A stretch of DNA of 64,000 bases from Stentor roeselii (taxonomy: Eukaryota > Ciliophora > Heterotrichea > Heterotrichida > Stentoridae), in NCBI GenBank assembly GCA_006503475.1, contig RSEH01000080.1, positions 1-64,000 of the forward strand. Direction: 5' to 3'. A program made the position numbers and the translations under genes. The notes under the pieces were generated by a model. The model had not been told where the DNA came from and made no database searches. It was given only the letters and a program-made list of their open reading frames with translations. Numbering within the stretch: the stretch's first letter is position 1; the number at the start of each line of letters is the position of its first letter. This document shows, in pieces, positions 5,901 to 62,621 of this stretch.

Positions 5901-8900
5901 ATAAAGATTGTTTAGTATGCACCTCAGGTTACATGTTTTTCACAAACTTAAAAAAATGCATCGCAGCTGAAGTATGTCCAGGACTCGACTCATCATCTTC
6001 AATCTGCACAAAAAACGAAACCTTTTCGATTTATCGAGAATTCAATAGTTTCAGTAATATCTTCAATGATAGTTCAAATCAAATTTCTTTTAAAACTTTT
6101 GAAAATCCTTGGGTGATTATTGGTCGAGGACTTTACTTCAACAGTAGTAACTTTTTAATGATGGATGAAAAAAATAGATTTAAATTCGGGCCTGAATTCA
6201 CCATCACGATTTGGGCGAAGGTTTATGGTTCAGGAAGTTTATTTAAAAGAGTTGATCAGAACACTTTGATTGATATTCAAGTTGATTTTTTTTCTTTAAA
6301 TTCAAGTTTTCATGTTCGGAATCATCAACTTCAGATAAAAAATTCGGAATTTTCTTCATTTTCTGGAGAATGGAAATTTTTTCAGTCTTTTGTTGGTTCT
6401 TTGAATAGTTCTTTTGAATTTTTTTCTGAAAAGAGTTCTGTTCAAATGAGTATTTTTTTTGATTGGTTTAAAGATTCGAGATTTTCAGAGACTTTTATTG
6501 GAAAGTTTAAAGGGTTTATTTGGAGTATTGAAATTTGTAATGTTTTGCAACAGGTGTTTGAAAATTATGATGGAGGACCTTTTGGAATTGTTGGAAGAAT
6601 TAGTGAATGTGGAGTTTTACAGTTTGGAGATTATTGTGAGGATTGTCCGGATTTTTGTAATATGGGATGTAGAAGGTCTAAGAATTGTGAAATGTGTTAC
6701 GATGAGTTTTGTATGAAATGCTCTTTTGAGATGGTTTGTGATGAGTGTTTTCCAGGATATTTTTTATTATCAGGCACTTGCCATCAATGTCCAGAAGACT
6801 GTTTAACCTGCGACTCAAACTCCTCATGCACATCCTGCATCTCATCAAACACCGACCTAACAACCAAAAGATGCAAATGCCAAGATGGTTTCTTCAACGA
6901 AACCTCTCTAACCCTCCAAGATTCATGCAAAAAATGCGATTCAAGCTGCTTAAAATGCACTTCCTTAAAAACCTGCATCACATGTAGAGACCCCAATGCA
7001 GAAAAAGACGAAAATTCCGAATGTATCTGTAAATCAAATTTTTACTTAAATCCTTTAACTTCAAACTGCTCAGAATGTGAAAAAAACTGCGAAAAATGTT
7101 CAAATATTAAAAATTGCACATCATGTAAATACGAAAATTCACGACTTGACACAGGACAATGTTTTTGCAACGATGGGTACTTTGAAGACTCTGCCAATTG
7201 CATGAAGTGCGATTTTGACTGTCTTTCATGTAAAAACCTCAGCTTTTGTCTTATTTGCAAAGGAAATAAAGTATCAATAGAAGGAAACTGCCAATGCAAA
7301 AAAGGCTGGTTTTTGAAAGAAAATGAAAAAAATTGTAGTCCTTGTTTTTTCCTTTGTGAAGACTGCACATCTGAATTTAACTGCTTGTCTTGTACTTTAA
7401 ATTCTGAGTTAATAGAAAAAAAATGCACCTGCAAACTCGGCTTTTATCTAAAAAAAAATGAATGTGTTAAATATGACACTCTTTCTATGAAGTTCAAGGA
7501 AGGGTTTTTGAAAATCGACTTGAAATTCTCAAAAGATATGAAAAATCTCACTGTTGATAAAATTTTTGGAAATTCTTATGAAAGACTTTTTGGGCAAGGG
7601 TCTTTTTTGCTTCAGAATGATGAGAATAGATTTGTTTTGCATCTTGGAAAAAATTATAGCACGCGGTTGAATGATGAAAAAATTAAAATTGAATGTGAAG
7701 GACTTGAAAAAGAAGATTTTTTTTGCTATGAAGGGTATTCGGTTAGTGTTAAAAAAGAAAGTGATTTTCCGGCACCTGTCGCAAAAATTTTTATTGATGA
7801 AAAATGTGGAAGAAGAATTTTACTTGATGGAAGGTTTTCTGAAGGAGGATTGAATTTTGAACTGGGTTTTAAGTGGATGAGTGGAGAGGATCGGATTGTG
7901 TTTAGTGAAAAATCGGTTGTTGAATTGAATTTGGATGATATTGAAAAGATTTTTTTTAGGAATGAAGGTTTTATTAATGTTACTTTGCAGGTATTTAATG
8001 TTTATCAGAAAACAGACTCTAAGACTATAGCTGTTAAAATACCATCTGAAAGTTCATTTTATGTCACTCTCAACTCAAGCACGAAACTTGAATGTTATTA
8101 TTCCCAAACCTGCGAATTTTTCATATTAAAAGCCTTTTCTTGTCTAACTTCCCCATCACTCCAATTCAACTGGTCCCAAATTCCAGACCCTTCAAAAACT
8201 GCTTCAGAAAACCCAAAAGCCATTTCAACCCAATCACGCCAAAAGTCATCCCTTTTAATCCTCGGCAAATCTCTCCAACCAAAAACCTACAAATTTCAAC
8301 TAACCACTTTAAACTCATCAGGAATTGAAATATCAAAGAAAGAACTAGAAATAACAATAAAAAGAGAGAAGCCATTGATAGTCCTCGATAGAAGCTTTGG
8401 TGACGTAAGTCGCTTTGAAGACCTTTTGATAAACGCCTCTTTAAGTGTGAATCCAAATAACGATGCAGGTCTCAGGTACTTTTGGGAAGTATTTCTTGAT
8501 GAAGTTTTAAAATTTGAAAGTCCTTTCTTGAAGATATCAAAAGAAAGAATATCAAAATTTGACTTTTTTTTCATTTCTCTTCAAGTTTGTGACTCTGGAA
8601 GTGAAGACCTCTGCAGCTTGATCAGTGGAAGGGTTAATATCAAGAGTCATCTAACAGGAAAAGCAAGGATTTTAAACAAGTCGAATAAACTCTTGGAAAG
8701 AATTTCAAGTAATAAAGAAACTTTTGTGAAAGTGGAAATTGAGTCTTTTTTTCCGATAAAAGAACTTACATGGAGCCTGGATTCAAATAAAACGATTTTA
8801 AGCTCAAGTTTAAATTTTCTACTGTCACCATTAAATCTTTTCATAGGAAAGACTTATGTTTTGAACGTGAAAGTCAAGTTTTACTTGAGTGAAGTGTTGT

Positions 8901-11113
8901 TTTCTTCAAGTTTTCAGTTAAATCACGCTCCTGATTCAGGTGTTTTTTTGGTAGACCCGAAAACTGGAAATGAACTTGAAACGATTTTTACATTCTTGGC
9001 GATTGACTGGAAAGATGAAGAAGAAGACTACCCCTTGCTATACGAGTTCGGGTATAAAAGTTCAGAATCGAGTATGAGTTTTATTTCTCAGCAACAAAAT
9101 GTTTATTTCACGAAACTCTGTGATTTTGGAAGAAATCTTCAAGGAACTCTTTTTGTTTTTGACTCACTTGGAGACTTTGCAAGTCGAGAGGAAAGTTTTC
9201 AAATTGAGAAGTCAAATATTTATGGCAAAGATATTTTCAATGAAATTTTTAATGAAATTGTTCTTGATCATCAGTTGCCTGTTGTTGTTTTTAATCTTTT
9301 TCATTTTATTGCTTTGAATCATTCTGAGGAACTTGGACTGAGATTTGATGTTTTTGATTTTGCTGTGAAAAGTATGAAAAAATATCTAAATCATTCAGTT
9401 TTTAATGATTTTTTAGTTAAACAGTTCAGCAATGTTTTGAAAAATTTTGTATTGTCTGAGGATTTTTTTCATTTTGAGGAAAATGGAATTGGCAGAGTTG
9501 AAAGTAAAGAGGTTATGAGAAGATGTTTTTTTAATTCATTGGCAGTGGTCGAATTGATGGAAGACTTTCTGGAAAAGATCAAAGAAATAACATTGGAAAA
9601 AAATTATTTTGAAATTGGATTTGATAAGTTTCTAGTTACTTTATTAATTGGAGTGATAGATGCAATATTTACAGAAAACATGAAAGTTAACTCTCCAAAT
9701 GGTATTGAACTTTTTATTAGAATTAGAAAAAATATCAACTTGATCAATGATTTAGTTTTAGATAGATTGATTTTTGATTCAAGTTTTAGATACAGCTCTT
9801 CAAATATCTCTGTTCAAGTAGAAATTGTGGAAGGTGAAGAATTTAACAAAAAGTTCTTTGAACATGGTGAATATTTATTGAATTTCAACAATTTAACCTC
9901 AAATTTAAATAAATCTTCAGGGAATTACTGTGTTAATACTGGGGTGATAGTTGCAGAAACTGGAGATATTTTAACTGTCAGTGTTTTTGAGGTTGATAGC
10001 AGGTCTCAAGTTTATCTTAATGAAGGATTCAGCTCTTTTAAAGTAGAAATTTCCAATCTTGATGTAAAAGGATGCTATTATCTTGACTTTAAAAATAAAT
10101 TGTTTACTGATGAAAAGTGTAGATTGTATCAAGGTAAAAAATATTACTGTGAATGTGATTTTTCTGTTATAAATTCAGAGTTTTTTATCACTTTTAATTT
10201 GAGTTACTTGGATCATGATCTAAATTTTAAGAGATTTTATTGGAAAAAACCTGCGGTTTTTTTAATTTGCTCTTTTTATCTTTTGGGGGTGGCATTGGTT
10301 ATTTTCTGTTGGTATTTTGATTATAAAGAAAGTAAACAAATGATCAACATCAAGCCGATCTTTCCTAATGCTGAGATATCTTTTGCAGATAATCAGAATG
10401 AAGGTGCTAATTTCAACCAGAGTCATGATTCTACTTTTCATGAAAATTTCAAGAGTGAAAACAAGTTCTTGAAGGAACCTAAAATAACTCATAAATTTGA
10501 TAAATCACTTTCGGATAATCAGGAGATCATTTCTCATATTGAGCGAGAAGAGATTTCTTTAAAAATTGACGAAATTAATAACAAGATTGAACATAAATGT
10601 AAATATTCTGAAAATTTTCACCAGATTATGGCAAGATTACTTAATTTTTCAAAGAAACTAGCACTTGTTAAAGTCTTTCTGATAAATGAAGATTCCAGAC
10701 TGTCGAATTGTTTAAAGCTGACCCTCAAAATATCAATTCATCTTTTAATGTTATCATTTTATTTTGATAAAATTGTTGAAACTAACAATATGATTTCTTT
10801 CAGTCTTACCACAATCAGCATTATTCCTCTTCATATTTTGCTATCAGTTGGAATATCAGAGCTGAATAAAAGGGTATTTTGTTCAGATTTTAAAGTATTT
10901 ATAAAAATTTCCCTTCTCGGATTTCTTAATTTATCTATTGCTGCATCAACAATTTACATCCATTTAGAAATGTCTTTGCAGAAAAGCAGATTAAGTATCA
11001 TTCCCATCATATTTTGTGTTTTACTTGATTTAACTTTTATCGATTTGCTGGAAACGCTAGTAAAAGAATTTTTATTTACCCCGGTGTGGAGATTTCTTAA
11101 TAAAATGTTTTAA
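2966..11113 (+). CDS. Polycystin-1-like giant surface protein (LamG-like/Cys-rich/GPS/multi-TM)
   Basis: This 2715-aa protein starts with a signal peptide (about residues 1-17). Four laminin-G/concanavalin-like modules follow, each carrying an RG(F/Y/L)YF anchor at about residues 93, 387, 701 and 1053. They are separated by cysteine clusters and followed by a furin/growth-factor-receptor-type Cys-rich block (about 1220-1500). Next come PKD/REJ-like beta modules (about 1600-1700) and a GPS-like motif with a C...C.C pattern near 2369-2400. A TM helix lies at about 2427-2450, then a ~130-aa charged cytoplasmic linker, and four or so TM helices (about 2586-2709). This order resembles polycystin-1/REJ proteins, which act in mechanosensory or adhesion signalling; that role is inferred here. 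I see no PLAT domain. Two dead relatives lie in the window. The ATG follows an AC-rich leader and gives a good signal peptide. Confidence 0.8.
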   Translation: MSLILQVFILFQTTSTSYLCSNCSKSLTLSTTTKVGVCPTGFTTNLSTCIFKSSYQVDLDFTNYISFSKSSISSFSLRSGTFQTTGNPFPTKERGFYFPLNSFLTGTSPFIPSPTLSFSMLIRVFDNGSLFSIFGKTSYLELKGKDIISLNYRYCGPDQLCNFSENLIHFEITKTIKNPWILILFNIKETEIIEISLFLNLEETFKISIDGENAIGIKDLSEKFTLKIAKETEGFSGFFYYFQLDNHSLNYFTDFGQISTCDPFYYLENNKCFYKNCSNLSPLWTVREECSTCYTNQCLTCNSFSSDSCSSATFRCEKGCTRCSLNSCEVCDTSYFKLNNGTTYCNESIQVNLLRNHLDFHIVSGKNGKTDSKNNPENDDPVFVEGRGFYFDGDAFLTTATSFIIPQDFCVFFWVLPVSGTIFSKGAVLEVLFEKRSNQLISSIFFENNENFTSTLIKLTTASKSTWQSFYLQVENNLKGEIKFGFKDQANVFYSKGALFVDSLENQFFLGKGSEGFIGFIANFAVSSKVFNHFLDLYFLYSAFSSLYGTRLNSCYESATTSCNITCENCDLCSDSSNGLCFLCPVGSFFDEVTCAALEEKKGFIAFKGNFYTNRGSCSLSFKGLECTFCYFPYVLFENLCISFCPSGYVNDSSVCIFQYSEVLSFFGNNSFNVSVLGNISLGSSSLEYPNLDFNDPIPAYNRGYYFKSNSFMKTSFVTLGPRFKITAWILSFLHGVMLRKYKSDNSTNLMINVTKTYDFSANVSTLFHNISLLITRYLIYERKTWDLISLTASYEPNTLTSTFSMKINGITYSLFFASPVKKIEFDFFEDEKNSELFFGSNKNDGFLGFIYLLKIYNNDIPEVIYTISMNRSPFPNIFPDPCNITHFNQISGSFNVICRKCLETCINGCLRATDCSLCKKKLCKDCSSFESQCLSCKTGAFLDFQGNCECKDQYFENSTLNECFSCADNCLKCNGTLDKDCLVCTSGYMFFTNLKKCIAAEVCPGLDSSSSICTKNETFSIYREFNSFSNIFNDSSNQISFKTFENPWVIIGRGLYFNSSNFLMMDEKNRFKFGPEFTITIWAKVYGSGSLFKRVDQNTLIDIQVDFFSLNSSFHVRNHQLQIKNSEFSSFSGEWKFFQSFVGSLNSSFEFFSEKSSVQMSIFFDWFKDSRFSETFIGKFKGFIWSIEICNVLQQVFENYDGGPFGIVGRISECGVLQFGDYCEDCPDFCNMGCRRSKNCEMCYDEFCMKCSFEMVCDECFPGYFLLSGTCHQCPEDCLTCDSNSSCTSCISSNTDLTTKRCKCQDGFFNETSLTLQDSCKKCDSSCLKCTSLKTCITCRDPNAEKDENSECICKSNFYLNPLTSNCSECEKNCEKCSNIKNCTSCKYENSRLDTGQCFCNDGYFEDSANCMKCDFDCLSCKNLSFCLICKGNKVSIEGNCQCKKGWFLKENEKNCSPCFFLCEDCTSEFNCLSCTLNSELIEKKCTCKLGFYLKKNECVKYDTLSMKFKEGFLKIDLKFSKDMKNLTVDKIFGNSYERLFGQGSFLLQNDENRFVLHLGKNYSTRLNDEKIKIECEGLEKEDFFCYEGYSVSVKKESDFPAPVAKIFIDEKCGRRILLDGRFSEGGLNFELGFKWMSGEDRIVFSEKSVVELNLDDIEKIFFRNEGFINVTLQVFNVYQKTDSKTIAVKIPSESSFYVTLNSSTKLECYYSQTCEFFILKAFSCLTSPSLQFNWSQIPDPSKTASENPKAISTQSRQKSSLLILGKSLQPKTYKFQLTTLNSSGIEISKKELEITIKREKPLIVLDRSFGDVSRFEDLLINASLSVNPNNDAGLRYFWEVFLDEVLKFESPFLKISKERISKFDFFFISLQVCDSGSEDLCSLISGRVNIKSHLTGKARILNKSNKLLERISSNKETFVKVEIESFFPIKELTWSLDSNKTILSSSLNFLLSPLNLFIGKTYVLNVKVKFYLSEVLFSSSFQLNHAPDSGVFLVDPKTGNELETIFTFLAIDWKDEEEDYPLLYEFGYKSSESSMSFISQQQNVYFTKLCDFGRNLQGTLFVFDSLGDFASREESFQIEKSNIYGKDIFNEIFNEIVLDHQLPVVVFNLFHFIALNHSEELGLRFDVFDFAVKSMKKYLNHSVFNDFLVKQFSNVLKNFVLSEDFFHFEENGIGRVESKEVMRRCFFNSLAVVELMEDFLEKIKEITLEKNYFEIGFDKFLVTLLIGVIDAIFTENMKVNSPNGIELFIRIRKNINLINDLVLDRLIFDSSFRYSSSNISVQVEIVEGEEFNKKFFEHGEYLLNFNNLTSNLNKSSGNYCVNTGVIVAETGDILTVSVFEVDSRSQVYLNEGFSSFKVEISNLDVKGCYYLDFKNKLFTDEKCRLYQGKKYYCECDFSVINSEFFITFNLSYLDHDLNFKRFYWKKPAVFLICSFYLLGVALVIFCWYFDYKESKQMINIKPIFPNAEISFADNQNEGANFNQSHDSTFHENFKSENKFLKEPKITHKFDKSLSDNQEIISHIEREEISLKIDEINNKIEHKCKYSENFHQIMARLLNFSKKLALVKVFLINEDSRLSNCLKLTLKISIHLLMLSFYFDKIVETNNMISFSLTTISIIPLHILLSVGISELNKRVFCSDFKVFIKISLLGFLNLSIAASTIYIHLEMSLQKSRLSIIPIIFCVLLDLTFIDLLETLVKEFLFTPVWRFLNKMF

Positions 11114-11956
11114 AATTAGGATTGTCATTTAGGATTCAATAATTTAGGTATTTATGTTGATTAGTTTTAACAATTTTGAATATTTTTTTATGTGGCATTG
11201 AAAATTGTTGTAAAAAAGAATTTTCCAGAGGTAAGTTAAACTAAACTATTCTTATAAAAATAATTTTACTCAATTGTTTAATCAAAATAGCTTTTGAGTT
11301 TAATTAAAACTTGAATTGATATCCTAGTTTTACTTTCTGGGACCTGATGAAAATGAACACTGTTCTTAATTTTCAAGGAAAAATAAAAGGAATTTAACTG
11401 CTAAATTTCATTTTTAGGGTATTTTGATATGAAGATAGGTATTATTAGTCAAGGAATATGAAGATATATCTCGAGATTGCAGTCTTAAAGGCAATTAAGC
11501 TAAGTCTAAAAAATTTATAAAAAAATATCCCCAGACTGCAACCAAAGTAAAAAAAATCTTAACTTATTTTGTATTAACTTGTATAAACTCTCTTTACTCA
11601 TCTATATTTGATTATTTTTCTTATTTATGCATATACAGCAAATGAATTTCGGATAATAATTCAAGATTATCTTGTATTTCTTCTTTTTTGTTTAGATAAA
11701 TTAACCTTTGTTCTATAAAGACAACTATTAAAATATTCTACTACAATATCTCATCCTAAACAATAAAAATCTCAAATTACTTTAATAATAAAACAATCCA
11801 TCCATCAAACCCCTAAATCCCCAAAAAACAACCAAATCACCAACACCTAAACTACTCCCTCTCTAAAGCCCTCTAAACCCAATTAAAAACTCTCCTAAAC
11901 CCACTCAAATCCTTTTCCTAATCTTCAATCAACCCTCTAAACCCCTGTCCATAAAA
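11114..11956. other. Intergenic, nothing recognised; AC-rich leader at the end
   Basis: AT-rich DNA with no open frame or RNA gene that I can support. From about 11740 the plus strand becomes rich in A and C with very few G, up to the ATG of the ABCC gene. The same kind of G-poor leader precedes most core genes in the window. Confidence 0.6.
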
Positions 11957-14900
11957 ATGGATGAGATCTGTTCGCCCTACCCAGGCGGATCATCAATGAG
12001 CGAATACTGTTTCGGTGTCCTCGGAGTGCATTCAATCGATTCAGTCTTTTTCTCCTCACTGATCCTTCTCGAGCTGGTCCTTCACAAGCCGAAGTTTTTT
12101 TCAAAGCCAAGCCATCTTCTTCTGAGTCTGACCTTATCCCAAATCCTTTGGAACTTCCTAAGCTTATCCTTAGTCCTTTTCTACCTTCCAGTGTCACAAG
12201 TCTCCCTCGCAGAAGTGTCCAGTTCAATCCTTCAAGTCCTTTCTTGGATGCTAGTCTTCAACTGTTACTACAAATACAGTAGTCCTTATGAATTTTGTAA
12301 AACTTCCTTGTTTTCCTTGAAATTCTTCATGATCTTCAGGGTGCTTTTCGTGATTTTCACAATTTTTCAGATTTCTTCAGTGGAGCCGAAAAATCACAGT
12401 CAAAAAGTCGTCATGTGGATCAGGTCCTCAGGATGTCTTTTTTTAGTATTTTTAAGTTTTGTCACTTTCAAGAAAAAAAGACTTGAAATCGATGAAGCTT
12501 TACTTGGAGATGAAGAAATTACGAATAACTATGAAAAAGCTGGAATTTTCTCGAAACTTTTAATGAACTGGTCTTTTGATTTGTTGAAACTTGGGAATAC
12601 TCGACCTTTAGAACCTTCTGACATTGAAGATGTAAGAGAAGTTGATACTTCTGAGTATCAGCAAAGAACATTATCAACTTTTATGTCGAAGATTTATGAG
12701 ACTTCTGATAATTATGGATTGTTGAAGGTGTTATTTTTTAGGTTTAAGTGGGATATCTTGAAAATTACTTTGATTGGAATTTTTTCATCGTTTCTTGAGT
12801 TTTCGACTCCTATTTTTGTGGGACTTTTAGAAGATTATCTGAATAGTGATGAACCGATTTGGAAAGGGGTGAGTCTTGTGGTTTATTTGTTGATGACTAA
12901 ACTTTTTCATTGTCTTATCAGCAATCAATATGATTTCATTGATAGAGTCTTTTCAATGCATGTCAAGTCGGCTTTGTCTTGCGAGATTTATGAGAAATTA
13001 TTGAGAATTTCTATAAATAGCATTTCTCAGGCTTCTGATGATTCACTTTCATATGGGAAGATTGTTAATCTTATACAAGTTGATGTTGAATCTATTACTT
13101 CTGGAATTATTAGCTTGATGAATATGATCATCTTGCCTTTTACTTGGGGATTCGGGTTTTACTTGATTTTTGTTACTATTGGATGGAAGGGAGGCGTCAC
13201 TGGAACTGTTATTATTGTGGTGCTTATGATACTTAATCTGCTACTTGGAAGGAAAATGTCGAGCACTCAAAAGCAGCTTATGGAAATGAAGGATAAAAGG
13301 ATGAAGGCTTGCAATGAGTTACTTTCAAATATCAGGATTTTTAAATTGTATGGCTGGGAACAAAAACTCGCGGAAAGAATCTATATAGCGCGAGAGTTAG
13401 AACTAGAAAAGCAAAAAACAGTCTTCCACATAAACATCTTAAACATCTTCCTTAGCTGGGGAGCTCAAAACTACATCGCAGCCGGAATAATCATAACCTT
13501 AGCCCTATCCGGCAAAACTCTAACCCCAACAAACGTTTACGCAGGACTTGCAGTAGTTCGTGTTGTAAAGAACTCATTATACGTCCTTCCTTCAATCATA
13601 AATTCTTTCATCCAAACAAAAGTTTCCTTAAACCGTATCCAAGACTACCTTCGTTCAAAAGACCAAATGATTTACATTGAAAAGCGTTATTCAGGAGAAG
13701 CGATTTCGATAAAAAATTCCAGTTTTTCATGGGAAGTGAAAAAAGAAGGACAAGAAGGAGAACTTGTAGAAACTAGAAGGGTCTTGAAAAATCTTGAAAT
13801 AAAAGTCAAAAGAGGAGAACTTGTCGCTGTTGTCGGAAAATTTGCTTCAGGGAAGTCTTCTTTGTTGCAGGCTTTGATACAAAATATGGTCTTGGTTTCT
13901 GATGATGATTCTTCAGTTGTTGTTAATGGATCAGTTGCTTTTTGTAATCAAGAGACTTGGATATTGAATAAGACCATTAGAGATAATATATTGTTTTTTA
14001 AACAGTTTAATCAGGAAAGGTACTTGAAAACTCTTCAGGTCTGTCTTTTGAACTCGGATGTTAATGCCTTTCCTGGAGGAGATTTAACGGAAATTGGGGA
14101 AAGAGGGATTAATTTAAGTGGAGGGCAAAAGGCTAGGGTTTCGATTGCTAGGGCTGTTTATGCTGATGCTGATATTTATTTGTTTGATGATCCTTTAGCG
14201 GCTTTGGACCAGTACGTCGGCAAGTCATTATTCGAACAGTGCATATTAAGACATCTATCAGGTAAAACCCGTGTATTAGTAACAAACAATCAACAATACC
14301 TAAGCCATGCTGACCGAATCTTAGTCCTAAGAAACGGAGAACTAGTCCAAACAGGTAATTTCCATTCTCTTTCAAGTCAACCAGGTTACTTCTCAGATGA
14401 AGTGATGGTCCAAATGAAGCAAGCAACTCTAGGAACCGAAGTCCCAGATGAAAAAAAAGAAACGGCCGACACCGTCGGCCGAGTAAAGGAAAAAAAACTA
14501 GTCGAATCGGAAGAAAGAGCAATAGGAAGCGTTGACCTAAGAGTTTATCTAACTTACTTGAAATACGCTGGAGGTTCCACTATTATTTTCCTTGGAATTC
14601 TTTCAATGGTCCTCTGGCAAGTCGACAGAATGTTAACAGATATTTTTTTAGCAGACTGGACTGACCAAAGCGCAAAAGAACAAAGAAGAAATCTTGTAAG
14701 AAACATGGTGATTTTCACTGTTGGCTCTGTAAGTATAAATATTTTCATTCTTTTCAGAGCGGCTAATAATTTGTATGCTGGACTTCGAGCTGCAAGGAAG
14801 ATGTTCAATCAAATGATGACGTCATTGCTTGATGCTTCGATTCCTTTGTATTATGATGTTAATCCTATGGGAAGAGTTTTGAATCGGTTTTCAAAGGATC

Positions 14901-16234
14901 AGAATAATGTGGATTCAACTGTTTGCAACTCGGCGAATTGGGCACTTGCACAGATTTTTCAGGTTTTTATGTATATCACTTTTGCTATTTATACAGTTCC
15001 GATTGTACTTGTTACTATTCCTGTCACTCTTTATCTTGCTGGAAGGGTTCAGAGGTTTTATCTTGCTTCTTCTAGGGAACTTACAAGACTTGAATCTATG
15101 AGTCGTAGTCCGATTGTGCAGCATTTTTCTGAAACACTTTCTGGATTGGCTACTATTAGAGCTTTTGCTCACCAGTCATACTTAAAATCCCAATACTACT
15201 CCTTATTCAACAAAAACCTTTCTCTAATATTCTACAAGACCGGTACAAGTTGTTGGCTTTCCATTCTTCTAGAGTTAATCTCTGACATAGTGCTAGCCTC
15301 AAGCGCATTAATAATAGTTTTCTCACGAGATTCAATAGACCCAGGTCTAGCAGGTGCCTGCCTGACATACGTGATGATGATCCCTGAAGGAATTTACTAC
15401 TCAATGTTCGCCGTTGCAAACATGGAAAACGCGATGGTTTCAGTCGAGCGAGTCCACAACATGTCTTCAATTCCAACAGAAGAGTCAAGAACCGGTTTTC
15501 AAGATTCTTCATTATCTTCAAAAAACTGGCCTCAAGAAGGTCTCATCGAATTTATCAACTTTTCAGCCAGGTATCGACCAGACACAGAACTTGTCTTAAA
15601 AGACCTGAACCTCGTCATTCACGACAAGGAAAAAATCGGAGTCATGGGAAGGACTGGTTCAGGAAAGTCTTCTCTTGTTAACTCCTTGTTTCGGGTAATC
15701 AATGCGGAAAAAGGATTTATTTTAATATCTGGAGTTGATATTCAAGAAGTTGGACTTACTCTTTTAAGGCAAAAACTTTGTGTTATTCCACAAGACCCTG
15801 CATTGTTTAGAGGATCACTTCGGGATAATATCGACCCTTTGAAACAGTTTAATGATGAGCAGGTGGAAAATTCTTTGAAACTTGTTAGGCTTGAATTTTT
15901 GCCTTCTTTTGAGATTAATGATGGAGCTGCTAATCTTAGTGCTGGGCAAAAACAACTCATTTGCATCGCTCGCGCTCTGCTTAGAGGGTCTAAAGTTGTT
16001 GTTTTAGATGAAGCTACTGCGAGTATTGACTTTAAAACTGATTTAATTGTGCAGGAAGTTATTAAGCAGCAGTTTAAAGAATGTACTGTTGTTACTATTG
16101 CTCATCGAATTAATACTATTGAGGAAAGTGATAGGATCCTTGTCTTGGATGATGGAAGGGTCGTCGAATTTGATAGTCCTGAGAAGTTGAGAAAGATGAA
16201 TGGATTGTTTTGCAAACTTTCAATGAATCATTAG
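11957..16234 (+). CDS. ABC transporter, ABCC/MRP family (full transporter)
   Basis: A 1425-aa multidrug-resistance-protein type exporter of organic anions or conjugates. It begins with a hydrophobic N-terminal region (about residues 15-170), then TMD1 (about 250-575). NBD1 has Walker A near 626-634 (GKFASGKSS), signature LSGGQ at 720-724 and Walker B ending DDP near 744-746. TMD2 spans about 860-1170. NBD2 has GRTGSGKSS at 1231-1239, an LSAGQ signature at 1327-1331 and DEA near 1351-1353, followed by TIAHR. NBD1 carries D where NBD2 carries the catalytic E, as is usual for ABCC proteins with one degenerate site. Its Walker A reads KFAS where most ABCC have PVGS. The length is normal for a 'long' ABCC. 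Synonymous composition switches repeatedly between C/A-rich and G/T-rich blocks. Substrate and membrane are not predictable. Confidence 0.96.
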   Translation: MDEICSPYPGGSSMSEYCFGVLGVHSIDSVFFSSLILLELVLHKPKFFSKPSHLLLSLTLSQILWNFLSLSLVLFYLPVSQVSLAEVSSSILQVLSWMLVFNCYYKYSSPYEFCKTSLFSLKFFMIFRVLFVIFTIFQISSVEPKNHSQKVVMWIRSSGCLFLVFLSFVTFKKKRLEIDEALLGDEEITNNYEKAGIFSKLLMNWSFDLLKLGNTRPLEPSDIEDVREVDTSEYQQRTLSTFMSKIYETSDNYGLLKVLFFRFKWDILKITLIGIFSSFLEFSTPIFVGLLEDYLNSDEPIWKGVSLVVYLLMTKLFHCLISNQYDFIDRVFSMHVKSALSCEIYEKLLRISINSISQASDDSLSYGKIVNLIQVDVESITSGIISLMNMIILPFTWGFGFYLIFVTIGWKGGVTGTVIIVVLMILNLLLGRKMSSTQKQLMEMKDKRMKACNELLSNIRIFKLYGWEQKLAERIYIARELELEKQKTVFHINILNIFLSWGAQNYIAAGIIITLALSGKTLTPTNVYAGLAVVRVVKNSLYVLPSIINSFIQTKVSLNRIQDYLRSKDQMIYIEKRYSGEAISIKNSSFSWEVKKEGQEGELVETRRVLKNLEIKVKRGELVAVVGKFASGKSSLLQALIQNMVLVSDDDSSVVVNGSVAFCNQETWILNKTIRDNILFFKQFNQERYLKTLQVCLLNSDVNAFPGGDLTEIGERGINLSGGQKARVSIARAVYADADIYLFDDPLAALDQYVGKSLFEQCILRHLSGKTRVLVTNNQQYLSHADRILVLRNGELVQTGNFHSLSSQPGYFSDEVMVQMKQATLGTEVPDEKKETADTVGRVKEKKLVESEERAIGSVDLRVYLTYLKYAGGSTIIFLGILSMVLWQVDRMLTDIFLADWTDQSAKEQRRNLVRNMVIFTVGSVSINIFILFRAANNLYAGLRAARKMFNQMMTSLLDASIPLYYDVNPMGRVLNRFSKDQNNVDSTVCNSANWALAQIFQVFMYITFAIYTVPIVLVTIPVTLYLAGRVQRFYLASSRELTRLESMSRSPIVQHFSETLSGLATIRAFAHQSYLKSQYYSLFNKNLSLIFYKTGTSCWLSILLELISDIVLASSALIIVFSRDSIDPGLAGACLTYVMMIPEGIYYSMFAVANMENAMVSVERVHNMSSIPTEESRTGFQDSSLSSKNWPQEGLIEFINFSARYRPDTELVLKDLNLVIHDKEKIGVMGRTGSGKSSLVNSLFRVINAEKGFILISGVDIQEVGLTLLRQKLCVIPQDPALFRGSLRDNIDPLKQFNDEQVENSLKLVRLEFLPSFEINDGAANLSAGQKQLICIARALLRGSKVVVLDEATASIDFKTDLIVQEVIKQQFKECTVVTIAHRINTIEESDRILVLDDGRVVEFDSPEKLRKMNGLFCKLSMNH

Positions 16235-16399
16235 GTTAGTTTTTAGTAGTTTTAGGTGATTGTCTTGGAGATTTTTTATTTGGCGTGAGGTATTTTGGGT
16301 TTGGTGAAAGGAGAGGATTTTAAGTTTAATAATTTAGAGATTTTTATAATTAAATAAGAGAAAAGCTTTAGGAAAAGTTTATGTTATTATCATTTTTTA

Positions 16400-17450
16400 A
16401 GTGAATGAAATTGGATTTTATATTTACAGTTAGCCTAAAATTTCAATTAGTAATAAATTTGGAAAATTATTTGTTGATTATGATACAATTTGATTTCTAT
16501 CACTTAAATAAATTGAACATCCACATTCAAAAAATAAAAGTTTTTATAGTAATCCCAGAATCAACTACAAAAATATCGCCTGCCAAGGATCTGTATATAA
16601 TGATGGACTTCCACCAAAGAAATACTTTTTATATGAAGAAATGATTTGAATTTAGTTAAAGTGAAAAAATTAATTGACTTATAGAAGATTTCAATTTACC
16701 CACACCGCAACTCTTAAAGAAAGTAAATTTAGGGATTTGATAAAAAAATTACAAAGAAATGATGAAGAAATTACATGAAATGGTGACTTGAAATAATGAA
16801 AACTTGAATGATTTAATTTAAATATCCTAACTTATTTGCTTCGTACTTCGATTGAATATATAAATTTAGAATGGAAAAAACTGTTTCAAAATTTTAATTC
16901 TTAGCAGCTGGACTTTGATTACCTATCGAACAGTAAAAATTAGAAGATTTTCTACAAGATAGGTGGAATATTTCCTTATTTTGATAATAATATTGATTTT
17001 TTAAAACAAAATCATATCTAGAGGTAATCAATGTGTTCTGTATTGAAATTTGATATGACTCAATATTGGTGTTTATGTTGTGAGGCTAGATATTTTCATT
17101 TTCAGGGGTGCAATAATAAAGAAAAGAAGTAACTAATAATATTCTCCTTATTAATCTTAAAGAATTGCATCTTAATGTGAGAAACTTGATAAGATAAGGT
17201 ATGATATGGATTGGGTGTTAATATTCATAATATAATTGTGTTCTTATAAAAAATAGTTTAAGGGATTTAAGTGGTCCTTATTATTTTAATGAAATTAAAG
17301 AGATTCGTTATTAGTGTAAATGAGTTCAATGCAATCTTATATATTCTGTGAAAATGCTTTAAAGATCTGAATAGCATGCCTAAGTCTATTGTGGAATTTA
17401 TGAGGACAAGCATATAAGGTCTCATATTTTTTAAGATCCTAACATCTTCA
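16400..17450 (+). pseudogene. Eroded copy of the ZZ-finger gene
   Basis: DNA matches the 18391-19910 gene in the same order. 'gaatatttccttattttgataataatattg' at about 16968 matches 19400. 'atgactcaatattggtgtttatgttgtgagg' near 17053 matches 19502, and 'tgtgaaaatgctttaaagatctgaatagcatg' near 17347 matches 19801. Stops and indels run throughout. It lies immediately upstream in tandem, so it looks like an old tandem duplicate, far more eroded than its neighbour. Confidence 0.8.
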
Positions 17451-31637: not shown

Positions 31638-33725
31638 ATGAAAAGTAAAAGTCTCGCAATAGCAGGACTTATTTACCTTCTATTCCTCCTTTTTTACTTT
31701 CCCAATCGAAACGAGTTAAAATCTTATCTTCAACCCCTCTTCCCAAAGCGTTACTCCTCAGAAAACCCATTCGAAAAGACCGTCTTTCGCCAAGTCAACT
31801 ACTTCCAATCAAACACATCTTCAGACGTGAATCCCTTAAACAACCAAGACTTTAAATACAGTCCAAAACGATTCGAAATCGACGATACCGACCTTTTACT
31901 TCAAGAAAACCTTGAATGCAAGCCAGATAGTTTCGGTTATTCAAAAACCCGTGGAAAAGAAGTCTTCAAAGAAAAAACTTACCCAAAATGTTCAAAAGTG
32001 AATAAACAAAACGAGACTTACGCTCATATTGACCGAGTTTCAAACAAGGCTTATATGAACTGTCCTGATAAAAACAAAAAAATCCTTCTTGGACCTTTTG
32101 ATCATCGAAAACTTATTCCAAGAGAAGAAGGCTACAAAGGGTGGAAAGTTGAAGACTACTCTTCTCCAATCAACGCCAGTGACTTTGAGTTCATCCTTGG
32201 AAGTTGCGAATCTGACGGTGAAGAACTTCTTCAAGGAAACATGGTACCTCGCTTTAACTCTTCTTCTTTCAAAGCAGCGAAAAAGTTAGTTTCAGGAAAA
32301 CCAAAATTGATTTTTTTTTTAAGTCTTGATAGCATTTCAAGAAGACACTTTTTTCGTAAACTTCCAGATTTGGTCGATTTTTTAAATGATTTAAATTCAG
32401 AAAAAAACTCGAATTTCTCAACGTTTGACTTTAAATTACAAAATGTGATGGGTGGAGACTCGCCTGATAATCAAGTTCCGATTTTTATTGGCCATCTTGG
32501 ATTTCCCAAGATGACTCCTGGAGAACAGGACAAGGATTTTTTAGGGGAAAAGGCGATTTGGCATAAGTTGAGGAAAAAAGGGTTTATTTCGGTTATTGGG
32601 TTTGAAAGTTGTGATGATAACTTTATTAAGACTATTGGAAGGGTACCGGATGTTGATTATTGTGTTGGACCTTTTTATTGTGCTGTTGAAAAATTCACTG
32701 CTAATAAGTTTGGAAAAGGATTTAGCTTGCAGAGATGTCTTGGAGGACATCAGACTCATTTTTATATTTTGAATTATACGAGGACTGTTGTGGAGATGAA
32801 TCGAGGCGCGAATGTTATGGCTTATTTGCATCTTAATGCTGGACATGAAGGGACTGGACTACATGCTGCGGTTTTGAATTTGGATATTAGGGATTATTTG
32901 AAGGACCTGTTAAAAACATACGAAGACTCATACGACATATTAATATTCCTAAACGGTGACCACGGTATGCGATACGGTTCATGGTACACAGAGCTGAGCG
33001 CATTCCAAGAGCAGAAACTTCCATCATTATTCATAATCGCAAGTAAAAGTCTTTTAAACAAGCATCCTCACTCTTACCACTCACTTTCCTCTAACACCCT
33101 AAGACTAGTCTCAAAACTCGACTACCGCAAAACAGCCTTGTCCTTAGCAGGTATCGAAGAAGACACCCCAGGAGGAATAAACCTTTTCACCCAAATCGCA
33201 TCACGTTCAAGGACCTGCACAGACCTCGGAGTCTCTCCATTCGACTGCGCTTGTTTAAAAATGAGTGAAATTTCAGTAATTGACTCAGAAACCTTATTTT
33301 TCCTGGAAAGTCTTAAAAATTACGCAGAAAACACTATCAATTCTTTAGGATTTTCAGAAAAAAAACATTTTTTAGGACAAACTTGTAAAAAAATCGTTTT
33401 AAAAGAGATAGAAAAGGTTTATCATATCGGAATTGATAATGTTAAAGAGATTTTTAAATTGGAATTGTCGTCGGATACTCGAAAGAACCTCAGGTTTGCT
33501 GTTAATTTTTATATTGCCGCTGATGGAGACAACATGGGCGCCAATGGGCTGAAATTTCGAGTGGAAAATTTGGTTTATAAGGCGAAACCTGTCAAGGCAA
33601 GGGTAAGAGTTAAACAGATCTTGTCGTTTATGAGGATGGATCAATATGCCGGTAGATGTGAAATTGAAGCGAGGAGGGTCGGCATCCAGGCTGATTTTTG
33701 TGCTTGCAATGAATTTGAGAATTAA
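31638..33725 (+). CDS. DUF229 family protein, alkaline-phosphatase/sulfatase fold
   Basis: A 695-aa type II membrane protein: a short basic N-terminus, one TM helix (about 6-22), then a lumenal or extracellular catalytic-like region. Signature strings fit the DUF229 (PF02995) family. LIFFLSLDSISRRHFFR near 225-240 is the metal/nucleophile site of the sulfatase superfamily. LHLNAGHEGTG is near 397, FLNGDHGMRYG near 437 and LAGI...GGINLF near 510. D, S and H metal-site residues are present, so it may be an active hydrolase on an unknown sulfate or phosphate ester. Length is usual for the family. The gene alternates between C/A-rich and G/T-rich blocks, with a sharp boundary near 32905. Confidence 0.88.
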   Translation: MKSKSLAIAGLIYLLFLLFYFPNRNELKSYLQPLFPKRYSSENPFEKTVFRQVNYFQSNTSSDVNPLNNQDFKYSPKRFEIDDTDLLLQENLECKPDSFGYSKTRGKEVFKEKTYPKCSKVNKQNETYAHIDRVSNKAYMNCPDKNKKILLGPFDHRKLIPREEGYKGWKVEDYSSPINASDFEFILGSCESDGEELLQGNMVPRFNSSSFKAAKKLVSGKPKLIFFLSLDSISRRHFFRKLPDLVDFLNDLNSEKNSNFSTFDFKLQNVMGGDSPDNQVPIFIGHLGFPKMTPGEQDKDFLGEKAIWHKLRKKGFISVIGFESCDDNFIKTIGRVPDVDYCVGPFYCAVEKFTANKFGKGFSLQRCLGGHQTHFYILNYTRTVVEMNRGANVMAYLHLNAGHEGTGLHAAVLNLDIRDYLKDLLKTYEDSYDILIFLNGDHGMRYGSWYTELSAFQEQKLPSLFIIASKSLLNKHPHSYHSLSSNTLRLVSKLDYRKTALSLAGIEEDTPGGINLFTQIASRSRTCTDLGVSPFDCACLKMSEISVIDSETLFFLESLKNYAENTINSLGFSEKKHFLGQTCKKIVLKEIEKVYHIGIDNVKEIFKLELSSDTRKNLRFAVNFYIAADGDNMGANGLKFRVENLVYKAKPVKARVRVKQILSFMRMDQYAGRCEIEARRVGIQADFCACNEFEN

Positions 33726-35747: not shown

Positions 35748-35814
35748 TTTTTAGATGGATTGAGAATGGTTTTTAGTTTTAGATGGTTTGTTGTTTTGGG
35801 GTTATATAGGGAGA

Positions 35815-37827
35815 ATGAAGATGCGGATTAAGGCATTTTTATGTGTCTGTCAGATTGACCTTATACCTTTTTTCCTGATAAGGAATCATCTTCTTAAATC
35901 AGGAACGCATAGAGTAGTAAAAAAAATCTTTATTCCTTCAAAAATTGCAAAGAGAAATAAAATTAGAGAAAGATGTTCAGTTGTCAAGTCATCGCAACTT
36001 ATACTTCAGAAAGACTCTTATTTTTTAACACAAAAATGTATTCATAAAGTTCTGAGATTTTTTTGTGAGTTGATTAATCCGAACTACTTAAAAATATCTG
36101 AAAATATTTCAATATCTTTAACTTTAGGTATTTTATCATCTTCTGAATCAAAATCAAAGCTTCTTTCTGAACTTTCATCATTTTACTTAAAAGAAAACGT
36201 AAGAGAAATTACAATATTAAAATACGAAAAGCAAATCTTTACATTATCTTTAAATTATTTTCTTAAAAATCACTCTTCTCAAATCTTTTCACTCTGCTTA
36301 TCAAGAGACAATTCACTATTAATATCAGGAGAAATAGAAGGGTTAATGAGAATCTGGAACCCTTTAAATTTGGATCATAAAGCTTGTTTATTTTCTCACT
36401 CATCTGAAATAAGGTCACTGGATATTGATTTTTCATCGACATATTGAATATCAGGAAGCAGTGACTCCTCGATCTGCATATGGAACCTGAAGAAGCAGAA
36501 GTTAAAGGCAAGTTTCAAAGAATACTCAAATCCTGTGTATTCAGTGATGTTTTCAAGAAATTGGCAATATTTTCTAAGTGGTTCGCTTTACGGACGTGTT
36601 AATCTTTGGAGTTATTCTCAAAAAGTCCCTGTTTTCCAATTGAAATTATTTTCAAACATTTTGGTTTCATATATAAAGAACTATCAAGAGTTCCTCGTTC
36701 TCGACCTCAAAGGCCTTATCAAAATTTTTGATATTTCTGAAAAGAAAGAATTAAGAGAAAGGCAAACGAAGTCTAATGTAATATGCGGCCATTTTACCCC
36801 TGATCTTGAAATTTTATTCACAGGGAACAAAGAAGGTTTCATTCAAATAATTGAAATAAAAGACTTGAAAATAATCAAATCTTTTAAAGGTCATAAAGAA
36901 GAGGTGCGATCTTTAAGTTTTTGTAAAAAGAGTAAAAAATTCGCATCAGGATCTTTTGATAATAACATTATAATTTGGCGATTTCCCAACTGTTACCCTA
37001 TAGAAAAAATCATAGAAAATAACATTCAGGTATTTTCTGTAATATTAAAAAATAATCTACTTTATTCTGGCGGATCATCCTCGAAGATCTTTTTAAGAAA
37101 TGTTAGGAGAAAAAATAATGGAAAATTTGAAACAAATCTTGAAAAATTTTACATTTATTGCTTAGCTGTGTCTGTTAAACTCAATTTCATTGCTTATGGG
37201 TTCGAAAAAGTGAATTTATACAGTATGGAGATTGATTCTAATGTAAAATCTCGTGTTTTAGAAGGAGAAATCGCCAGTTTGACATTTTTTAAGACTTTTT
37301 TATTGTGTGGAACTAATAAAGGAAAAATCTTCTTAACCACTCCAGACCTTAACACCCTGCGACAGTATTTTTTTGAAACAGCTTGGATTTACTTTATTAG
37401 AATGTCAGAAGACTGCAAAACTTTAGCTTTTTCAACAAGGAGCAAATTACTTGTCATGGATATCAGAAAAAAATCGATTTTATTGAAACATCAAAGTCGA
37501 GTGGAAACTGGAAAGATTCGGAGGAAGTATTTTGTTTTTGTTGATGTTTATAACAAAATATTTCTTTCGATTGACTTTCAGCCTCAGGTGCAAATTCTTA
37601 CTGGTGAGATTTGCAATGTTTTTATTTTTAAAGATTTGAATTATATTCTTTTTAGGAATGTGGACTCTGGATTCTTAATTTTTGATTTAAAGAAAAAGTT
37701 GTCTTCGAAATTAGATAGAGGAACGAAAGAATTGAAAGAAATTGGTGGATGTTATAGGATTGAGTATTTTGATGTTTTTTTAATTCAGTGGATTATTGTT
37801 TATTCATTCATTAGTTTATTGTTTTAG
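35815..37827 (+). CDS. WD40-repeat protein with one in-frame TGA
   Basis: One frame is open from an ATG at 35815 to a TAG at 37827 (about 670 codons) except for a TGA at 36445-36447. On both sides the sequence continues in register as WD40 blades: SGEIEGLMRIWN before it and ISGSSDSSICIWN straight after it. The TGA falls just before the S-G of a blade, where a hydrophobic residue is usual, so TTA-to-TGA or TGG-to-TGA mutation or TGA read-through are all possible. No 15/16-nt intron removes it. About ten blades can be made out; no other domain. It starts 67 bp after the astacin-like gene on the same strand. A dead relative lies at 1190-2050. Confidence 0.65.
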
Positions 37828-42044: not shown

Positions 42045-42349
42045 AATTATTAAAATTATTTGATCAATTTAGTTGAGAGTTGGAATGATTTAATTAGTTT
42101 CTTTAGGGAGATGGTAAAGTATTTTGAAAGAAATTATATAAGATTATGGGTTTTTAGGGATTATTTGTAGTTTATGCTGAGTTCAGTTTTGGTATCGGTT
42201 TATTTTTGTTGAAATGTTAGATTTTTGGTGAAAATTCAGATAGAGATAGGCTTCTCAATATGCATCAAACTTATTTAGCAAAAATGAATAATCATAAAAA
42301 ACTCCAAAAAAAGTTACAACTTATTAATTCGATTTAAACTCTAACTATT
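42045..42349. other. Convergent gap, nothing recognised
   Basis: Three hundred and five AT-rich bases between the 3' ends of the third CC-W family gene and the 808-aa WD40 gene. Nothing seen. Confidence 0.5.
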
Positions 42350-45325: not shown

Positions 45326-45675
45326 GTTATTAGAAGTGGATCAAGTTACTACAATCATTTTCTTTTCATCAGTTAATGTTATTTGTTAATCTTTAAATTT
45401 TAATCAATTGATAAACCATGGCTAATTAAATACACTACAAGCTTCAATCACTTTAAATTACCTTCAATCACTCATTTCCTAATAATAAGAATGTGATTGA
45501 ACTAAACTCCATCATATTTTATTAGTACCAAAATCCCATCCTTCAAAACCCTCAAAGACTAAAATCCAAAAAAAATCCCAATCTCAAAAAAATTCAATCC
45601 AAAAATTCCTACCCCTAAAAACCCTAACCCCAAATAAAAAACCTCCAAATCCACTTCGAAACCCAAAAACAAATA
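45326..45675. promoter_or_regulatory. AC-rich, nearly G-free 5' leader
   Basis: From about 45540 to the ATG at 45676 the plus strand is A and C with a few T and almost no G; a 120-base stretch contains about two G. It includes 'accctaacccc'. The same composition precedes most core genes here, on whichever strand is coding, so it is probably 5' UTR or promoter. No motif common to all leaders was identified by eye. Confidence 0.55.
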
Positions 45676-46515: not shown

Positions 46516-46822
46516 GGGTGTTGAAAGGGTATTTAATCATGGTTTATTCATTTTCAAGAGTTTCTTCTTTTTTCCAGCATATCTCTTAGATTTAACCTTT
46601 TTTCATCTTTCCCACACCTAATAAAATCCTGGATGACTTCCATTTTCTCATTTTTCAAAATAACTGGATACCACAAATCTCATCAACCCACCAAATCCCT
46701 TCCAACTCCCTTCCCTACCCCCTTGAAAACCCCAAAAAAATCCCTATAAACCAATCCACCTAATTTTAATTGTTAGATTTCGACCACAGTAACTTTCAGT
46801 ATTTTTCACTATAATTTAAACA
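46516..46822. other. Intergenic; AC-rich leader of the MORN gene
   Basis: No gene. From about 46650 to 46760 the plus strand is rich in A and C with few G, as in other core-gene leaders. Confidence 0.5.
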
Positions 46823-48037: not shown

Positions 48038-48388
48038 ATGGAACATGTTAAAGTCACTTTAATGCCTAAAGGGTTCAACCCTGATCTTCAAAAAGTAGAA
48101 ATCTCTACTTTTTTAGCTGATTTTTCATCAAATACTCACCCAATCCTCACAAAAGCAGAAGTTGACCAGATAAAGCAAAAAATAGCAACTCGCCGTTCAT
48201 TAATCCAAGAAAAACAAGAAAAAAAACATGAATTCGAGGACTTAGCTGCTTTGATCTCTTCAACTAAATCAAAACAAGAAGAGCTCGATCGTTTAGCTTC
48301 CCTTTTAGAGCAAAAGGCGAAACCAGATCAAAAAAAAGAAAAAAATCTAAAGAAAAAGAAATCTTTTTTCGCTAAGCTTTTCGGTTGA
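48038..48388 (+). CDS. Small charged helical protein, 116 aa
   Basis: I recognise no family. Residues ~45-95 form a charged helix or coiled coil, and the last 20 residues are lysine-rich with an FFAKLFG end. It lies on the same strand between the MORN gene and the 198-aa gene, 165 and 142 bp away. It ends TGA-TAA: the TGA is one of only two TGA stops among 27 genes here, and if it were read as Trp the frame would close one codon later. Coding is supported by biased codon use and fit rather than homology. Confidence 0.6.
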   Translation: MEHVKVTLMPKGFNPDLQKVEISTFLADFSSNTHPILTKAEVDQIKQKIATRRSLIQEKQEKKHEFEDLAALISSTKSKQEELDRLASLLEQKAKPDQKKEKNLKKKKSFFAKLFG

Positions 48389-52733: not shown

Positions 52734-52881
52734 TTGAGATCTTTGATTGTTTTGGAGTTCTTAGATTTTCATATGCCTTTGATTCGATGATAAAATTTAT
52801 GAATCTCGTGAATATTTTTATTGTATTAAATTTTGAAAAGCTTGATTACATTATCCCTTTTTAATAGTTCGGAATTTATAA

Positions 52882-60921: not shown

Positions 60922-61003
60922 TTTGATATTTGAATGTATTTTGAATACCTCAACGAAGAGACTGGATTTAATATGTGGGTTGGATATTGGCTTATTAATC
61001 TTC
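60922..61003. promoter_or_regulatory. Compact divergent promoter, kinase / coiled-coil pair
   Basis: If the kinase starts at 60921 and the coiled-coil gene at 61004, 82 bp serve both genes. The spacing is similar to that of the VTI1/syntaxin pair (96 bp). No TATA-like box shared by both was identified. Confidence 0.45.
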
Positions 61004-62317: not shown

Positions 62318-62580
62318 TTTTTTTTCATTAGTTTTAAAACTTGTTGTTTTAGGTTTTGCTTTATGAGAGACTTCTGGGAGGCTTGAAGTTTTTGGTCGTT
62401 TTTTATCTGGCACATTAAAGAGATGAGGGAATCGGTTTTTAATGGATCTTGAATTGGTGGTAGGGTGAATTGGTTCATTTTGTGGGTTGAAGGGAAGATG
62501 TTTGGATGATTTAGGGATTTTGTTTCTTCATCTGATGAGATGTAGGTTGATTTCTCCTCTGTGATGTGAGTAGCAATCAT
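62314..62580 (-). CDS. Hypothetical protein, 88 aa
   Basis: A short hydrophilic protein with a helical C-terminal half ending in lysines, of no recognised family. It starts 42 bases downstream of the VTI1 stop on the same strand, and its TAG overlaps the TAA of the converging coiled-coil gene by sharing bases 62315-62316. The minus strand here has coding-like composition, which is the main support. Confidence 0.55.
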   Translation of the reverse strand: MIATHITEEKSTYISSDEETKSLNHPNIFPSTHKMNQFTLPPIQDPLKTDSLISLMCQIKNDQKLQASQKSLIKQNLKQQVLKLMKKN

Positions 62581-62621
62581 GTCGTATCTTTATATGCAAA
62601 CGTATCCAAAAAATTACATCT

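Follow-up and report, generated by a model that had tools for sequence, protein, structure and literature searches.

Possible footprints of recurrent breakage in a strand-composition sawtooth running through genes and spacers of a Stentor contig

Replication-linked strand skew, as on bacterial leading strands and in human N-domains, forms a strand-symmetric sawtooth of G+T versus A+C that extends over tens of kb to Mb. At human meiotic breaks directed by PRDM9, the forward strand has C and A mutated on one side and G and T on the other, an asymmetry attributed to strand-specific processes following resection (Hinch et al., 2023; PMC7615360). Among ciliates, strand skew near gene ends has been described from the subtelomeric regions of nanochromosomes, as a purine skew in Nyctotherus (PMC2633312) and as a GC skew on the 3' side in Halteria (PMC7858049), both at chromosome ends. 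The window analysed here, the 64,000-nt stretch at positions 1 to 64,000 of contig RSEH01000080.1 of Stentor roeselii (GC content 31%; assembly of 44.39 Mb in 522 contigs), contains an ABCC-type ABC transporter gene and further genes which, like their spacers, are divided into units of ~1-2 kb, with strand composition flipping abruptly at near-exact points to give a sawtooth. Compared with replication-linked skew, the sharp edge of this sawtooth has the opposite polarity to an origin and its units measure 1-2 kb, whereas compared with the nanochromosome skews it lies on the keto/amino axis (G,T versus A,C), is two-sided and is also intragenic. The polarity and the two base classes are the same as those at human meiotic breaks (PMC7615360); there, however, rare variants were averaged over 28,286 hotspots, whereas here single sites are readable in one genome, C making up ~5% of the fourfold sites of the G/T strand. 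Among the open-licence PMC papers listed for the search terms chosen, none described sawtooth blocks of keto/amino skew inside ciliate genes.

In the following, an edge at which the top strand, read from left to right, passes from G/T-rich to C/A-rich is termed down and the reverse is termed up; edge positions were obtained by maximum likelihood (ML) with a support interval, edge strength is given as z, and within open reading frames (ORFs) the (G,T)-(A,C) skew of third codon positions was taken in 60-bp windows. A sequence-only reading of this stretch had described an alternation of C/A-rich and G/T-rich third positions along the ABCC ORF, which the 60-bp windows bear out, and the edges that it had placed are accurate, lying at 13358, 14207 and 15169 in the ABCC ORF, at 32910 in a DUF229 ORF, and at 8008 and ~6760 in a polycystin-like ORF. 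The sharpness that it had ascribed to all block edges holds for the G/T-to-C/A switches but not for the return, which is mostly gradual, and the blocks that it had placed within genes are present inside ORFs but also in non-coding DNA, the first C/A block of the ABCC gene starting at ~11714 in the spacer. The ABCC region has the following features.

11957..16234, plus strand: ABCC-type ABC transporter ORF of 1425 aa, with ABC_tran and ABC_membrane matches
11714..13358: sawtooth unit 1, C/A-rich then G/T-rich, with its start edge in the 5' spacer at 11713/11714 (z 6.1)
13358/13359 (support 13349-13362): ML edge between units 1 and 2, inside the ABCC ORF
13359..14207: sawtooth unit 2, C/A-rich then G/T-rich, with a sharp end edge at 14207/14208 (support 14203-14217)
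14208..15169: sawtooth unit 3, C/A-rich then G/T-rich, with its end edge at 15169/15170 (support 15129-15180)
15170..16425: sawtooth unit 4, C/A-rich then G/T-rich, running beyond the ABCC stop codon to a weaker edge in the 3' spacer near 16425 (z 3.7)

Statistics were drawn from 28 loci comprising 324 kb of the 44.4 Mb, loci L001-L008 being left out; 20 of these loci are the first 10 kb of contigs C1-C20, picked by number and hence non-random, and two are those of ABCC paralogs. The loci hold 98 ORFs of at least 200 codons, ORFs of fewer than 200 codons being counted as non-coding, and 200 synonymous shuffles served as the null. Regarding the reality of the blocks, the possibility that they are no more pronounced than in synonymous shuffles, named with the sequence-only reading as its refutation, was not borne out: the variance of third-position skew between windows is 126384, whereas the 200 shuffles average 60647 and reach at most 64500 (98 ORFs), and the lag-1 autocovariance is 58867 against a shuffle maximum of 2644. 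The variance amounts to 3.5 times the shuffle mean in the ABCC ORF and 3.9 times in the DUF229 ORF, values that none of the 200 shuffles reaches in either case. All 200 of their own shuffles are exceeded by 49 of the 98 ORFs, the other half falling below that mark; blockiness is strong, yet not present in every gene. For the Dicer-like gene (ORF 49997-52021, with RNase III domains), for which blocks had also been proposed, the variance is 2.7 times its own shuffle mean, but no internal down edge was detected at z ≥ 3.5. In 50 kb of phage T4 and 100 kb of E. coli K-12, both genomes of prokaryotic type that were run through the same pipeline as controls, the variance ratio is 0.96 and 1.01, respectively, versus 2.1 in the 28 loci, and no edge was detected at z ≥ 4.5. 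The strand-bias pattern is real, unusual and present in most of the sampled contigs.

The sawtooth has a one-way polarity. Down edges number 49 against 9 up edges at z ≥ 4.5 and 34 against 3 at z ≥ 5, and for edges lying wholly within ORFs the counts are 24 against 3 and 16 against 0, respectively; with gene annotation ignored, 33 down and 8 up edges are found on the keto/amino axis (z ≥ 4.5), and the same annotation-free count shows no excess of down edges on the purine/pyrimidine axis (8 down, 15 up) or the GC/AT axis (0 and 3). Two up edges, at 11956 and 45676, fall on ATG codons and are probably artefacts of a change in weight, but were kept in the counts. By locus, down edges outnumber up edges in 18 of the 28 and the reverse applies in five (z ≥ 4). 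A third-moment measure on the keto/amino (K/M) axis likewise gives +0.51 overall (flip p <0.0001) and +0.28 within ORFs (p 0.003). Edges were called on the keto/amino axis, so that this axis is favoured by choice, while the flat GC content and the symmetry of the other axes are not so favoured. As the reverse complement of a down edge is again a down edge, the polarity is independent of the strand read. Patchiness without one-way polarity also marks purine/pyrimidine composition and GC content, whose variance in non-coding 100-bp windows of the 28 loci is 2.1 and 2.6 times the binomial value, respectively.

The median spacing of down edges is ~1.6 kb (81 distances, z ≥ 3.5). Third-position skew is +0.50 to the left and -0.44 to the right at 0-100 bp from the edge, declines with distance and has disappeared by 500-600 bp (68 down edges, z ≥ 4), whereas in non-coding DNA near down edges the values are +0.30 and -0.28 and have faded by ~400 bp, and at first and second codon positions the skew is weak, at ~0.1. 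Regarding edge width, variable-width fits, for which amplitudes and decay length were set by hand and which were judged against simulations, gave an effective width of ~20-40 bp for the 47 usable of the 49 down edges at z ≥ 4.5, with the 23 touching non-coding DNA having a width near 40 bp, while the 24 up edges at z ≥ 4 had a fitted width of 100-150 bp, representing a gradual return.

Regarding the kind of base change, fourfold sites on the G/T strand contain G.22, C.05, A.20 and T.52 within 100 bp of the edge, compared to G.125, C.15, A.38 and T.34 at 700-1000 bp. On this strand C and A drop and G and T rise, fourfold G+C staying constant at 0.26-0.30; fourfold C+T moves from 0.49 to 0.57 near edges, so that the difference is largely, though not entirely, of the transition type. 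No strong neighbour-base context of the change was detected in non-coding DNA. Among the 4-mers within 25 bp of 68 edges, GTAC was enriched 2.6-fold (20 counts, both strands), as a junction from G/T to A/C yields by itself, and no motif is claimed.

With respect to genes, intragenic edges oriented by the coding strand have equal amplitude on their two sides (+0.449 vs -0.464, ~2000 third positions per side), and at z ≥ 4.5 there are 11 intragenic down edges in plus-strand ORFs and 15 in minus-strand ORFs. The mean step is present in all three types of spacer (30 tandem, 18 convergent and 8 divergent). The skews flanking one spacer correlate (rho 0.31, p 0.02; 56 spacers, 150-bp flanks), and the two ends of one ORF are uncorrelated (-0.05, -0.09 and -0.14 at 150, 300 and 450 bp; 98 ORFs). 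On the whole, these results point to the edge, rather than the gene, as the unit of the process. The mean of 90 complete ORFs has a C-rich 5' end and a G/T-rich 3' end, which would follow from the presence of edges in spacers. Two ABCC paralogs elsewhere in the genome, 47% and 44% identical, contain similarly sized blocks whose positions are unrelated, with block correlations of -0.11, +0.23 and -0.45 that are reached by 31, 6 and 46 of 47 circular shifts, respectively; block positions are not set by the protein and have no positional conservation among the three ABCC paralogs. In addition, a fragment at 2026-2712 of contig C355, which is 52% identical to residues 832-1061 of the ABCC protein, carries eight stops in frame and resembles a decayed copy.

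Three features missed by the sequence-only reading point to breaks: the one-way polarity, the fading of the skew over 500 bp and its extension into non-coding DNA. The best explanation of the sawtooth, and one that is by a slight balance probable, is that recurrent germline double-strand breaks with 5' resection leave strand-specific substitutions. Each sharp edge would be a site of repeated breakage of both strands in the germline nucleus (micronucleus), presumably at meiosis, at which 5'-to-3' resection would expose, as single strands, the top strand on the left of the break and the bottom strand on its right. On the strand so exposed, C>T and A>G changes (mostly transitions) would arise from either damage, error-prone refilling or strand-directed mismatch repair in heteroduplex; since A deaminates slowly on its own, the latter two sources would be just as likely as damage. 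Over evolution the top strand would become G/T-rich on the left flank and C/A-rich on the right, and the bias would fade with the resection tract (~500 bp), meeting the footprint of the next break as a gradual return. Polarity and symmetry suggest such a footprint as the best-supported cause: the base composition has C and A lost on one side and their complements lost on the other, with the polarity expected of 3' overhangs, and the pattern is independent of gene orientation. Patchy strand-asymmetric mutation, as already proposed from the letters alone, is the right class of cause. The organism also appears to possess families of break-making and strand-exchange genes, with one match to the Spo11/TopoVI-A family (PF04406, E 3.9e-18), two to the Rad51 family (PF08423) and one to the Hop2 family (PF07106, E 2.2e-19), all assigned by family only.

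Several observations weigh against breaks with resection as the cause. Base composition here stands in for mutation, and whereas the human footprint (PMC7615360) consists of new mutations, the changes in this genome would have to be fixed and dominant. The human asymmetry is described in the same source as absent from the central +/-100 bp, but here the skew reaches the junction inside ORFs: the central ~100 bp free of asymmetry that a break footprint should have was not found, in-ORF edges being steps, and the 24 in-ORF down edges are best fitted by a plain step. No down edge at z ≥ 4.5 is present in 10 of the 28 loci, and within ORFs the third moment is +0.15 for GC skew alone (p 0.11) and not asymmetric for AT skew alone. 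GC content does not rise at edges, non-coding GC declining slightly toward them from 0.33 to 0.29, and the rise that is expected of GC-biased gene conversion at hotspot centres was not detected. The correlation across spacers drops with flank length, to 0.23 (p 0.08) at 300 bp and 0.18 (p 0.18) at 450 bp, and is 0.11 in the 18 convergent spacers, while the right (5') ends of minus-strand ORFs are weakly G/T-rich, at +0.05 versus +0.18 in plus-strand ORFs. Furthermore, two duplicate pairs of ~92% identity have no signed clustering of their differences (permutation p 0.88 and 0.33), though the skew is slight where they lie.

The sharpness of the in-ORF edges might be accounted for if these were sites of micronucleus-limited DNA (internal eliminated sequences) in the germline, a doubtful extension of the break explanation. 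Breaks would then fall inside the eliminated DNA, with resection extending from there into the gene to either side, and once the segment is lost from the somatic genome its flanks would be joined in a step of zero width; an eliminated break zone would resolve the excess sharpness because the flanks then meet in a perfect step. In Blepharisma, ~70% of eliminated segments are reported as intragenic (PMC9942856). At the ML junctions in the present loci, TA was found in 7 of 47 cases (GA in 13, TC in 10), giving no support for TA-bounded segments, although the median support span of 15 bp leaves little power. Searches for PiggyBac and for an ADAR-type deaminase gave no match, but their controls gave none anywhere either, so that the result does not establish absence.

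A variant of the break model that needs no extra mutation is strand-directed biased gene conversion at breaks, in which A.C mismatches would be corrected against the invading strand and G.T mismatches would not, so that the G/T alleles of the invader win; this has a small but appreciable chance of being correct, which overlaps with that of resection-associated substitution. Such conversion predicts mainly transitions, constant GC content and the observed polarity, but it requires steady heterozygosity and a putative repair bias, and the fourfold pyrimidine shift from 0.49 to 0.57 is not given by transitions alone. For single-strand annealing a strand-dependent bias is reported, but one in which mismatch type has little influence (PMC9001825). 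The gene conversion tracts considered in the sequence-only reading are retained as a link to recombination, but imported donor blocks are disfavoured because such tracts should give both polarities and one edge polarity dominates.

Transcription is an improbable source, in which the non-template strand would be exposed in R-loops, another candidate of the earlier reading, and antisense or convergent transcription would make the C/A-rich blocks. The skew of 90 ORFs, on average C-rich at the 5' and G/T-rich at the 3' end, agrees with such a source, as does the GC skew toward the 3' ends of genes on ciliate nanochromosomes, which has been ascribed to exposure of the non-transcribed strand (PMC7858049). 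The sign of the sawtooth, however, does not follow the coding strand: amplitude is equal on both sides of intragenic edges, down edges of this kind lie in plus-strand (11) as well as minus-strand (15) ORFs, and all three spacer types have the step, which argues against R-loops. Several antisense units per gene would be needed, each ending exactly at an edge. Replication, with forks meeting at the sharp edges or with reversed-polarity origins located there and a G/T-rich leading strand, is quite improbable. It is likewise strand-symmetric, and converging forks, given G/T-rich leading strands, would produce the polarity seen here, but the ~1.6 kb median edge spacing is far below known replicon sizes, ordinary origins jump from C/A to G/T and thus opposite to the sharp edges, so that no origin-type skew is present, and termination is usually diffuse, whereas here the down edges are narrow and it is the up edges that are diffuse. 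Selection on codon choice, mRNA structure or nucleosome positioning is very unlikely: most of the in-gene signal is at third positions, as it would predict, but non-coding DNA and, weakly, first and second positions share the skew, and the ABCC paralogs (47% and 44% identity) have their blocks at unrelated places.

Regarding the organism, the genome is read as that of a Stentor-like heterotrich, by its apparent introns and standard code. Candidate intron lengths in a frame-based scan peak at 15 nt (12 versus 0-8 at other lengths, two of the 12 overlapping), with A at position 10 in 10 of the 12 by eye, while a scan by splice-site words showed no length peak. In Stentor, 15-nt introns with a branch-point A at position 10 are given as 90.9% of introns and the code as standard (PMC9505925). 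The 58 ORFs of at least 400 codons in the 28 loci end in TAA (31), TAG (24) or TGA (3); TGA is rare, the three ORFs ending in it have further stops within 1-11 codons, as expected of true stops, and 48 of 60 TAA/TAG-bounded frames of at least 400 codons are without TGA. A bacterial small-subunit (SSU) model gave no match.

Mating has reportedly not been observed in the cells of the reference Stentor genome (PMC9942806). If breaks with resection are the cause of the sawtooth, it would testify that meiosis took place in the past of a Stentor-like lineage, and recurrent germline break sites would be readable to some tens of bases from one assembly, without population data or antibodies. Break-associated substitution could then dominate base composition inside genes, and such a genome would violate the within-gene homogeneity of codon-usage, selection and phylogenetic models. 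If the edges in ORFs are indeed sites of eliminated segments, the somatic genome alone would show a hidden map of germline breaks and eliminated segments. The sequence may thus carry a readable map of recurrent breakage, to which the window contributes the following edges outside the ABCC region.

6748..6771: sharp edge in the polycystin-like (REJ domain) ORF 2966-11113, z 7.1 at 6770, ML 6752/6753, support 6748-6769
8003..8065: second edge in the polycystin-like ORF 2966-11113, ML 8008/8009, z 4.8
32899..32912: sharp edge in ORF 31638-33725, which has a DUF229 domain match, ML 32910/32911, z 5.6
35853..35898: edge in ORF 35788-36447, z 5.1
42227..42232: sharp spacer edge between the convergent ORFs 41187-42044 (plus strand) and 42350-44776 (minus strand), z 5.8
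45523..45529: sharp spacer edge 5' of the PX-domain ORF 45676-46515, z 5.1
46602..46657: spacer edge between the PX-domain ORF and the MORN ORF 46823-47872, z 5.6
48049..48128: spacer edge 3' of the MORN ORF 46823-47872, z 4.6
52769..52829: spacer edge 5' of the UPF1-like ORF 52882-55254, z 5.1
60985..60997: edge at the 5' end of the minus-strand protein-kinase ORF 59464-61005, z 5.0
62568..62598: spacer edge, ML 62595/62596, z 5.8

At contig ends, no telomere-like repeat was seen by eye among the 24 ends printed (21 starts and 3 ends). The start of contig C2 (1-130) consists of tandem copies of a ~21-bp unit (TTTTTCGATTCCTTATCCAG plus one base), and near the ends of contigs C7, C455, C55 and C20 shared DNA of 84.5-92% identity is present, representing either recent duplicates or diverged haplotypes. 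Within the window, the Dicer-like gene (49997-52021) is followed by two consecutive UPF1-like helicase genes (52882-55254 and 56724-59231), as assigned by Pfam.

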